From: Actinomycetota bacterium
GTDB lineage: Bacteria; Actinomycetota; Actinomycetes; Streptosporangiales; Streptosporangiaceae
DNA length: 34,615 bases
Direction of reading: 5' to 3'
Assembly: GCA_027314515.1 (NCBI GenBank)
Contig: DAHVAR010000142.1
Location: 1-34,615, forward strand
The notes under the pieces were generated by a model. The model had not been told where the DNA came from, ran no database searches, and saw only the letters and a program-made list of their open reading frames with translations. Numbering within the stretch: the first letter of the stretch is position 1; the number at the start of each line of letters is the position of its first letter. Position numbers and translations under genes: made by a program. Positions 28,139-30,879 of this stretch are shown piece by piece.

Positions 28139-29239
28139 CTACGCCTGTGCGGCGGCTGGCGCTGGCTGAGGAAGGACATCCGCGACGATGCAAGTGACGT
28201 TGTCCGGGGCCCCGCCATCGACGGCCAGCGCGATGAGATCCTTCGCAGCCTGGTCGGGATCGTCAACCGTGCGCAGCACCGCGGCGATGGACTGCGCGTC
28301 CACCACCTCGTGCAGGCCGTCTGAGCACAGCAGATAGCGGTCACCGGGCTCGGCATCGCGCAACTGCAGGTCCGGCTCGTAACCGCCTTGCTCGACCAGG
28401 GCCCGCAGGACCAGGCTGCGCTGCGGGTGCGAGGCGATCTCCGCGGCGGTGATCTTGCCGTCGTCGAGCAGGCTCTGCACCACAGTGTGGTCCTGCGTGA
28501 TCTGGAAGACCTCCCCGTCCCGGAGCAGGTAGGCACGCGAATCCCCGATGTGAACCAGGCCAAGCTGGGATCCCGACCAGAGCAGCGCGGTGAGCGTCGT
28601 GCCCATCCCGCGCAGTCCCGGGTCGGAGCGGGCCATGTCGGCCAGCGTCCTGCTGGCCTGCCGCACGGCGTGATCGAGCGCGTTCAGCAGTTCGCCCGCG
28701 GGAACGTCGGTGTCCAGCGGCTTCAGCGCCTCGATGACCGCCGCGCTCGCGACCTCGCCAGCGGCGTGGCCGCCCATGCCGTCGGCGACCGCTATCAGCC
28801 GGGCTCCGGCGTATGCGGAGTCCTCGTTGTCTTCACGGGCCAGGCCGACATCGGACCGCACTGCGCAGCGGATTGCGAGCGTCTTCTGAGCGTCATGCAT
28901 CGGGAAGTCCCTTCCGGACAGGTATCCGATGAGGAAGGTGGCAAGCTCGCGCCTGGCCCTAGTCTCTGCCTCGACCCCGTCCCAGTACTCCTGCACCAGG
29001 TCAGCCGCCTCCGCGAGCGGTGCGGTGCTAGCTAGCCGGATGCTGGCAAGCGGCATCCCCAGCCGCCGCAGCCAGACCACCAGCCTGGCCTGCTCGAGCT
29101 GGGCGGGATCGTAGCGCCGGTACTGCGATACCGGGTCGACGACGGCCGGGCGCAGCAGGTCGAGCTCGTCATACAGGCGCAGCGCCTTGCGTGACAGGCC
29201 TGACGCGCGGGCGAATTCCCCGCTGGTCATCAGCTCCAC
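28139..29239 (-). CDS. MerR-type DNA-binding domain fused to PP2C protein phosphatase
   Basis: A 366-residue fusion. Residues about 4-70 are a MerR winged helix ('MTSGEFARASGLSRKALRLYDELDLLRP', 'YRRYDPAQLEQARLVVWLRRLGMPL'), followed by the usual dimerisation helix to about 105. The rest (about 125-355) is a complete PP2C Ser/Thr phosphatase: 'SDVGLAREDNEDS', 'VADGMGGHAAGEVAS', 'GMGTTLTALLW', 'HIGDSRAYLLRDG', 'LLCSDGLHEVV' and 'APDNVTCIVADV', with the metal-binding Asp residues present. The GTG at 29239 is preceded by AGGAGG at 6-8 nt; an ATG at 29287 is possible. No effector domain of the usual MerR kind is left, so phosphatase activity or phospho-protein sensing replaces it. It probably leads the glcDEF unit. 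Confidence 0.9.
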   Translation of the reverse strand: MELMTSGEFARASGLSRKALRLYDELDLLRPAVVDPVSQYRRYDPAQLEQARLVVWLRRLGMPLASIRLASTAPLAEAADLVQEYWDGVEAETRARRELATFLIGYLSGRDFPMHDAQKTLAIRCAVRSDVGLAREDNEDSAYAGARLIAVADGMGGHAAGEVASAAVIEALKPLDTDVPAGELLNALDHAVRQASRTLADMARSDPGLRGMGTTLTALLWSGSQLGLVHIGDSRAYLLRDGEVFQITQDHTVVQSLLDDGKITAAEIASHPQRSLVLRALVEQGGYEPDLQLRDAEPGDRYLLCSDGLHEVVDAQSIAAVLRTVDDPDQAAKDLIALAVDGGAPDNVTCIVADVLPQPAPAAAQA

Positions 29240-29287
29240 CGTCGCCCTCCTCATGCCAGGCAGGTTGCCCGGCATGATCAGGCTCAC

Positions 29288-29532
29288 GCTGGCCCCAGGG
29301 GCTAAGTCAAACCGGGCATTCGCCTCACAGTACGTCGGAGGTGGACCCCGCGCTGACGCCCTCGACCCGCATCGACCAAGATGATCTTGAATGGATGTGA
29401 CTCTCTTGTCGCTATAGCAACAGTAGGTTCACATCCATTCAAGATCATCCGATAGCTGCTGAGCCCGGCTCGCCAGTCAACGGTCGGCCAACCTCGCTAC
29501 TGTCTCAGTATTCGAGAAGCTAATATCAGTAT
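29288..29532. promoter_or_regulatory. Divergent control region between merR-PP2C and MFS genes
   Basis: The 245-bp divergent region holds, from left to right: a palindrome GCCCC-A-GGGGC (29292-29302), the large 21-bp inverted repeat described separately, and two direct repeats TCAGTAT (29505-29511 and 29526-29532) 21 bp apart that flank the MFS -10 box TAATAT (29521-29526). The -10 box lies 6 nt before the ATG at 29533, so the MFS transcript is probably leaderless. Confidence 0.55.
29380..29449. repeat. Perfect 21-bp inverted repeat with 28-nt spacer
   Basis: Arms 29380-29400 and 29429-29449 are exactly complementary (left arm begins GATGATCTTGAATGG). The spacer holds a second palindrome, GCTATAGC, at 29411-29418. 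The segment is much more AT-rich than its surroundings. It could form a 21-bp cruciform or RNA hairpin. Because it sits between divergent genes it is not an ordinary terminator. Confidence 0.95.
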
Positions 29533-30879
29533 ATGGGCGCTTCCGACACTGGCCTGGTCAGCGGGCACGGCGCCGGAAGTGGCAGGCGCTGGCTCATTCT
29601 GGCAGCCGGCCTGATTGCGATGACGGCAGGCTGCACGTTCCAGTACGGGCTTGCGTACCTGATCCCGGCACTGCGCCACGAAGGACTCACGCTTGAGCTG
29701 GCTAGCGTCCTGGTGGCCTGCCCGACCGCCGGCCTGCTGCTCACCCTGATCGGGTGGGGTGCCGCCGCGGACCGCTGGGGCGAGCGCGTCGTCCTCGCGT
29801 CCGGGCTGGGGCTAGCCGGGCTCCTGCTGCTGATCGCGTCTGCGGCCCGCGGGCCGGCCGGGCTAGGCATCTGCCTGGCGGCGGCCGGGGCAGCGGGGGG
29901 ATCGGTTTTCGCCGCCAGCGGCCGGCTGATCCTCGGCTGGTTTGCCCGGCATGAGCGCGGCCTGGCGATGGGCATCCGGCAGAGCGCGCAGCCCCTCGGG
30001 GTCGCGCTCGCGGCGGTCACGCTGCCGTCGCTTGGCGCCGCTGGCACCGGGCTGCCGCTGCGGCTTCTCGGCGCATTCTGCCTGGTCGCTGCGGCCATCG
30101 TGGTAGCCGTGGTCCGCAATCCGGCCCGCGCGCAACGGTCGGCCGGGCAGGCGGGCACTCCCGCCGGTGCACCGGCCGGCCCGTCGGCAGCGCCGTTCCG
30201 CTCACCCTCTCCGTACCGCTCACCATCTCCGTACCGCCAGCCCATGCTGTGGCGCATCCACGCCGCCAGCGCTCTCCTGGTCGTGCCGCAGTTCACCGTC
30301 GCCACGTTCGCGCTGGTCTTTCTCGTCGACGCGCGCGGCTGGGATGTGACGGCGGCTGGCCGGCTGCTCGCGGTCGCTCAGCTATGCGGTGCGGCGTCGC
30401 GGCTCGGGGCGGGGTACTGGTCGGACCGGGCGGGCAGCCGGATGGGGCCCATGCGGATCCTCGCGGTGAGCACCGCCGTCGGCCTTGCGGCCCTGGCCTG
30501 CGCAACGGCGGCCGGGTCGTCGCTTGCGGTGCCGGCTCTGCTGGCCTGCGCGGTGGTAGCCGTGAGCACCAACGGGCTCGCCTTCACCGCCGTCGCGGAG
30601 TACGCAGGGCCAGCGTGGGCCGGCCGTGCGCTCGGCGTCCAGAACACCGGGCAGAACGCGCTGGGTGCGGCGACCCCGCCGGCGCTGGCACTGGCCATCG
30701 GCTCGATTGGCTTCGGTGCGTCATTCGCCGTCGTGGCCGCGTTCCCGGTGGTAGCGGCTGTACTGGTGCCGGTCGCCGCGGAGCGCACGCTGGCCGTCGG
30801 CAACCTTAGACGCCGCGATCCGGCAATGGACGCGCCGCCGGGCGTGCCGCGGCCGGACGCGCCGGCTGCCCCTGCCTAA
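29533..30879 (+). CDS. MFS transporter, possibly for a small carboxylic acid
   Basis: A 448-residue major-facilitator protein with about 12 hydrophobic helices in two halves. '[15 protein letters not shown]' after TM2 is the MFS A-loop motif, and '[17 protein letters not shown]' is its counterpart in the second half. Between TM6 and TM7 lies a loop with an 'RSPSPY' repeat, encoded by an 18-bp near-repeat around 30197-30240. The C-terminus is a Pro/Ala-rich tail. Start ATG 29533 is 6 nt after a TAATAT box, so it is probably leaderless. Substrate is unknown; its place between glcDEF and malate synthase suggests glycolate, lactate or a related acid. Its stop overlaps the convergent aceB stop. 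Confidence 0.85.

Follow-up and report, generated by a model that had tools for sequence, protein, structure and literature searches.

The perfect inverted repeat that lies between two divergent genes of the window (the whole stretch of DNA analysed here, 34,615 nucleotides long) is probably a member of a family of short DNA palindromes that are scattered between genes throughout the genome, resemble REP or MITE elements and are moved or homogenised in trans. The copies are dispersed over the genome, lie between genes, keep a near-constant length of 48 bp, have arms that covary, prefer the 3' ends of genes, differ in part in their presence between close species, and have inner arms that change in concert.

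In the window itself, the 21-bp perfect arms, the 28-nt spacer (29401–29428) and the 8-bp palindrome GCTATAGC inside it proved exact on rechecking. The AT-richness of the segment was confirmed as well, with 41% G+C in the 70-bp inverted repeat (29380–29449) against 69.6% in the window. No other perfect inverted repeat of the window is as long when spacers of up to 60 nt are allowed, the runners-up having arms of 12 bp, and under an independent-base model a 21-bp repeat of this kind would be expected about 0.0002 times per 5.86-Mb genome. The RNA fold of this copy has a predicted energy of −42 kcal/mol (mean of shuffles −17.5, z −8.4), and since the spacer also pairs, 30 of 35 positions are paired overall. 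The true repeat unit, however, is a 48-bp palindrome with hardly any loop that is contained within the longer repeat (Table 1). The outer 11 bp of the window arms are made up by a side motif, GATGATCTTGA, without which the arms would not reach 21 bp. At three copies in the nearest relative, G006 (L159, L165 and L173), the side motif GATGATCTT recurs about 20 nt farther out, 29–30 nt to the left of the core, forming spaced direct repeats.

Table 1. Coordinates of the palindrome, its parts and the neighbouring genes in the window
Feature	Position	Strand	Basis or remark
MerR HTH and PP2C phosphatase fusion (neighbour, outside the element)	28139..29287	-	Pfam MerR_1, PP2C
Left 21-nt arm (composed of the side motif and the 10 outer nt of the core)	29380..29400	+	
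Side motif GATGATCTTGA	29380..29390	+	This motif or a close variant stands beside 18 of 60 copies examined
48-bp palindrome, repeat unit	29391..29438	.	Covariance model R1 match, 68.7 bits; alignments
Central GCTATAGC, the commonest centre of the family	29411..29418	.	Copy alignments
Right 21-nt arm	29429..29449	+	Matches the reverse complement of the left arm exactly
Inverted side motif, second copy	29439..29449	-	2 of 60 copies have the motif at both ends
Major facilitator superfamily transporter (neighbour, outside the element)	29533..30879	+	Pfam MFS_1

The arm recurs elsewhere in the window's own genome (G000), and relaxed pattern searches of this genome yielded a set of palindromes sharing their length and centre. 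The covariance model R1, built from 17 copies, matched the 5.86-Mb draft at no fewer than 31 distinct places (62 strand matches, E from 2.5e-17 to 0.036), and this number is a lower bound because 150 of the 329 first-look candidates were scored. Of the possibilities raised by the original prediction, it is thus the dispersed palindromic element that was borne out. Among the 60 genomes searched with the model, the window's own included, 17 gave matches. Within the genus, all genomes of which are drafts, the matches were concentrated in G006 and G002 (48 and 50 strand matches, respectively), the other genomes of the genus having few or none. Outside G000, the copies examined came from 21 places in G006 plus its contig C100, from 7 of about 25 places in G002 and from one place in G003 (17 strand matches). 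G006 corresponds to the public MAG JAJYUU01 (isolate FK1.bin32, Actinomycetes bacterium), a public contig of which is identical to its G006 stretch. In a different genus of the same family (G019) two palindromes were found that carry the outer arm ATGGATGTGAATCTAC but another centre. Of 394 genomes of the class, 6 contain the central pattern TGTYGCTATARCRACA, again counting the window's own, and 2 a reversed control pattern. The arms form genome-specific dialects: TGTGA prevails in G000, ATGGGTGTGCG is found in the examined G002 copies, and TGTTGG characterises about half of the G006 copies (11 of 21, as against 3 of 30 in G000).

No blastn match at E up to 1 was obtained in the phage and plasmid collections, and the five exact 18-mer matches in viral contigs all lacked the second arm; a phage or plasmid origin was dropped on these grounds. 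The 16-bp centre is present in three viral contigs. By eye, an extension of roughly TTCACCGAnAGCGAAC...GGCAAA...ACAAA can be recognised after the palindrome at L132, L133, L135, L137, L144 and L146 of G000, and a similar one in the G006 copies L163, L166, L167 and L177, which suggests that a subset of the copies belongs to a longer variant of the element. Two further observations concern the G000 stretches. The sequence GATGATCT occurs 20 times outside the elements, against a first-order expectation of 3.2, and contigs C144 and C233 are both 34615 bases long, with one palindrome copy each.

The original prediction had also considered the repeat as a cruciform-type operator of the adjacent MerR-PP2C protein. 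The description of the locus stands: the fusion is confirmed by Pfam, and the palindrome lies between this gene on the reverse strand and the MFS gene on the forward strand. To our knowledge, the joining of a MerR DNA-binding domain to a PP2C phosphatase is unusual; homologues of the fusion exist in several relatives. An operator of the MerR type would be restricted to the promoter that it regulates and kept together with the gene of the regulator. The position of a palindrome upstream of a MerR-type gene is what an operator would require, and in G006 the contig bearing the PP2C gene breaks off at the same spot, 8 nt into the side motif, which makes it probable, though not certain, that the element is present there too. 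Against this, the family occupies at least 31 places beside many different genes, the very outcome that the original prediction had named as refuting a local operator, and the model matched at none of nine loci searched (those of five PP2C and three MFS homologues, and the G006 contig that is cut short). The five PP2C homologues are the likely MerR-PP2C orthologues (L105, L109, L110, L113 and L114), and at these and the three MFS homologues the upstream sequence differs from that of the window. A scan of positions 28800–30000, which covered sigma-70-type promoters, found no promoter-like site of this type. The lack of model matches at the homologues and their different upstream sequences make an operator role unlikely, and with the copy number added we rejected the local operator, which we consider highly improbable. 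The copy in the window is best explained as an incidental insertion between divergent genes. Directly upstream of the MFS gene (29500–29535) there is an AT-rich block, approximately TAGTATCAATATATGG, which by eye looks alike at L111, L112 and L117 and in these four genomes is possibly the promoter or operator of the MFS gene.

The complementarity of the arms is maintained through changes of their sequence. In an alignment of 59 rows, one per place, 81% of the arm positions are Watson–Crick paired against 67% after shuffling of the 3' columns (maximum 70%), and 161 double-change cells were counted against 61 in the shuffles (maximum 82). Of the 60 rows, that of L137, whose core is 52 nt long, was omitted, and the copy L149, split by an insertion sequence (IS), was kept. 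The first 17 copies had given 23 double-change cells against 13.6, and 80.7% pairing against 26–44% for slid structures; the weak one of the five measures used on them, the count of pairs with both partners changed, reached 9 against 7.2 and was equalled in 45 of 500 shuffles. All these covariation figures are not probabilities because the shuffles ignore the relatedness of the copies. None of the counts was taken from RNAalifold, the alignment for which holds each place on both strands. The pairing is on average 18.2 of 24 pairs in G000, where none of 31 copies is perfect, and 20.4 of 24 in G006, where 6 of 21 are. About 200 stretches with at least 16 of 24 pairs would be expected in the genome by chance, so the pairing of the weaker copies is not rare in itself and it is the shared sequence that defines the family.

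On the sense strand of the 29 tandem copies the mismatches comprise 44 of the G.U type and 36 of the A.C type, with no clear strand preference. In the absence of a clear bias to G.U, the constraint seems to act on DNA or on both strands, and selection at the RNA level was set aside. The small structured RNA also proposed for this locus finds as little support, as the window contains no Rfam match at the gathering threshold.

With respect to genes, 15 of the G000 copies lie between tandem, 9 between convergent and 6 between divergent neighbours, and one is at a contig edge; none of the 30 copies classed among the 31 is inside a called gene. In G006 one copy, L166, fell within a called open frame. 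The gene calls come from our own codon-usage script rather than a standard gene finder. A stop codon is found within 60 nt of 17 of the 30 copies (null 5.4, sd 2.1), the convergent placements exceed their null of 4.2, and a 3' end is the nearest gene end for 21 of 30 (null 13.2), although the null is a rough one, based on random placement in 73 other spacers, which were taken from the window and the same stretches. The divergent spacer of the window copy is therefore a minority setting.

Intrinsic terminators that lack a tail and act in both directions occur in high-GC bacteria. It might be supposed that the palindromes are such terminators, or 3'-end RNA hairpins ending the flanking transcripts, and that the family is kept by selection. 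The proximity to stop codons, the excess of convergent placements, the nearness of 3' ends and the high stability of the RNA fold predicted for the window copy all agree with this, and the bias towards 3' ends could equally reflect a function. In the parts of a survey of perfect inverted repeats that were consulted, a strong peak is described 50–80 bp after bacterial stop codons (PMC13155455). T-tracts, which in intrinsic terminators directly follow the stem, are, however, few: at the edge of the 48-bp core four or more T in 8 nt are found on 4 of 120 junction sides, and five or more on 2 (the sides of the IS-split copy L149 being included). A fifth of the copies (6 of 30), that of the window among them, stand between divergent genes, the excess of G.U mismatches on the sense strand is small, and terminators need neither arms shared by 31 loci nor a concerted change of these arms. 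The window copy was not listed by a terminator scan. Termination as the basis of the family thus appears unlikely, though it is the most serious of the rival explanations.

The comparison of G000 with G006 shows how the copies evolve. Matching of flanks gave 16 orthologous pairs, of which 15 were counted after omission of the IS-split pair L149/L162; a 17th pair (L155) is in none of the counts. The cores of the 15 pairs differ at 104 of 720 positions (14.4%) against 5.5% in the aligned 1-kb flanks, and the DNA 10–70 nt from the core differs by 8.2% where it can be aligned, somewhat above these flanks. The whole excess of the core sits in the inner 36 bp (95 of 540 positions, 17.6%), while the outer 6+6 bp have diverged at the flank rate (9 of 180, 5%). 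Mirrored changes in both arms were found 26 times, against 10.8 expected and a maximum of 21 in 10,000 shuffles. Nine of the 15 G006 copies are closer to another G006 locus than to their own orthologue, as are 7 of 15 G000 copies to another locus of their genome, and at the G006 loci L160, L161 and L167 the inner 36 bp are identical. The orthologous copies thus show concerted evolution of their inner arms. The other 6 of the 15 G006 copies are not closer to a paralogue, and the pairs L132/L166, L140/L164 and L142/L170 are nearly unchanged (46 of 48 positions identical). As some loci have changed and others hardly at all, the inner part seems to have been overwritten at some loci only. The in-step change of copies in two close species hints at a copying or a selecting process.

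A selecting process could be provided by a single DNA-binding protein, such as a nucleoid organiser or global regulator, whose sites the palindromes would be over the whole chromosome; the arms would then change in concert because the specificity of the protein had changed. The shared sequence, near-constant length, palindromic symmetry and genome-specific dialects would suit such sites, and the likeness between loci would follow from selection by such a protein. This is hard to reconcile with genomes that have changed by half: roughly half the G006 copies retain another arm type, several orthologous pairs have remained nearly unchanged as described above, and copies have been gained or lost within a short divergence. 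We therefore regard this explanation as improbable, more so than termination.

The gain or loss is seen among 13 G000 copies without a listed partner in G006. Nine of them were aligned, the other four (L138, L141, L146 and L156) lacking a placement of both flanks. The element is missing from G006 cleanly at three of the nine, namely at L128, where it falls within a gap of about 174 bp, and at L143 and L154, with gaps of about 68 bp and 88 bp, respectively, and less cleanly at L151 and L153; three are undecided (L136, L137 and L147), and one, L155, is present. It is also missing from G006 at L157. Conversely, five copies are known from G006 only, and at L158, the one of them placed by both flanks, G000 has no palindrome. 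At the indels of L143 and L154 the boundaries are ambiguous and no clear target-site duplication can be read.

Taken as a mobile or homogenised DNA element, the palindrome may fold into a hairpin whenever it becomes single-stranded, either at the replication fork or in an extruded cruciform. A factor acting in trans may then move it or allow the inner part of one copy to be overwritten from another, as a result of which the arms would stay complementary and the copies within a genome would become alike. The copies would persist where they are least harmful, chiefly just after stop codons. Overwriting might proceed by transposition onto or into resident copies, or by gene conversion following structure-specific cutting of the palindrome. 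Correction of quasi-palindromes by template switching produces complementarity of the arms within a copy. It would explain this property of the family, but not the likeness between loci.

The search for a factor that moves the palindromes was directed at several candidates. The RAYT-type Y1 transposase (Pfam Y1_Tnp, PF01797) was detected in none of the nine genomes of the genus and in 5 of 14 control genomes; the nine are drafts, three of them at least 90% complete with no more than 5% contamination, and mobilisation by Y1/RAYT was rejected on this result. A transposon ended by the palindrome arms was dropped in turn, none being revealed among the arm matches with up to one mismatch in the draft G000. 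The ends of the G000 contigs C125 and C27 (L044:1-180 and L045:1-180) appear to be the halves of a single palindrome copy that was interrupted by an ISL3-like insertion sequence, the 8-bp sequence AGAAAACT being apparently duplicated at the target; the ISL3 label is based on similarity to the PF01610-bearing stretches L206 and L207, and the G006 orthologue of this copy, L162, is unsplit. ISL3 elements as a general mover were dropped because a single split copy was seen. The 288 predicted proteins encoded beside the copies, and in two of the three viral contigs that carry the 16-bp centre, were clustered, and by eye no recurrent transposase- or recombinase-like family was recognised among them; ten clusters span more than one locus, the largest with 8 proteins from 6 genomes, and they look by eye like ordinary metabolic families.

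A bolder reading, which we put forward only tentatively and think rather doubtful as it stands, is that these palindromes represent a new class of selfish or domesticated elements of actinobacteria, the inner arms of which an enzyme or repair route overwrites in place from another copy of that genome, without a Y1 transposase. In-place overwriting, as part of the same tentative reading, would keep the arms complementary and spare the outer six bases and the flanks. If this is true, fixed loci would see one genome-specific dialect of the palindrome family supplanted by another.

Other palindromes of actinobacteria with centres like TGTCGCTATAGCGACA (in G222, G039, G025, G027 and G005) share with the window family the same or a similar centre and long complementary arms, but their arm sequences differ, and they may be relatives of it or look-alikes. 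Four of the five copies examined in G222 are perfect 54-bp palindromes and the fifth pairs at 23 of 27 positions; in these copies (L191, L194, L197, L199 and L201) the outer and inner parts are constant and the middle of the arm is specific to the locus, yet this middle is palindromic in four of the five. In our own gene calls, each of the five is no more than some tens of bases away from the 3' end of a gene.

Tail-less terminators resemble the family in having hairpins close to the 3' ends of genes, and are set apart from it by its sequence common to many loci, its mostly missing T-tracts and its copies between divergent genes. MITEs are likewise small, non-coding, intergenic inverted repeats that are present or absent between relatives. 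The 48-bp palindrome, however, has no internal region between its arms, no target-site duplication was recognised at the indels, where boundaries are ambiguous, and no parent transposon with these ends was seen in the draft genome.

The nearest known kind is that of the REP and REPIN sequences, which, in the parts of the reports consulted, are described as short, palindromic, extragenic and dispersed, with genome-specific types and hairpins in single strands (PMC3116915; PMC3733652; see also PMC2817692, PMC8266576 and PMC6006769). Nothing recognised as the present 48-bp family was met in the literature searched, which comprised work on REP and RAYT and the inverted-repeat survey and included few subscription papers; none of the actinobacterial terms tried occurs in the consulted part of PMC3733652, and a term search of that of PMC6006769 gave no matches. 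The window family shares with the REP/REPIN systems the short dispersed extragenic palindromes, the sequence types peculiar to each genome and, presumably, the hairpin in single strands. It departs from them in the Y1 transposase undetected in nine genomes of the genus, in a palindrome of 48 bp with hardly any loop, where REPs have 20–40 bp, and in a number of about 30 copies found. The REP tetranucleotide tags are not enriched within 12 nt of the core (GTAG at 0, GGAG at 1 and CGTC at 4 of 60 copies, with 2, 5 and 8, respectively, in controls farther out).

Of the short palindromic repeats, those accounted for by a RAYT gene are the best understood. Here REP-like habits appear in a high-GC actinomycete genus without a detected Y1 transposase, and both inner arms of many orthologous copies in two close species have changed in step while the outer bases and the surroundings changed at the ordinary rate, which makes the question of copying or correction testable by the sequencing of strains.
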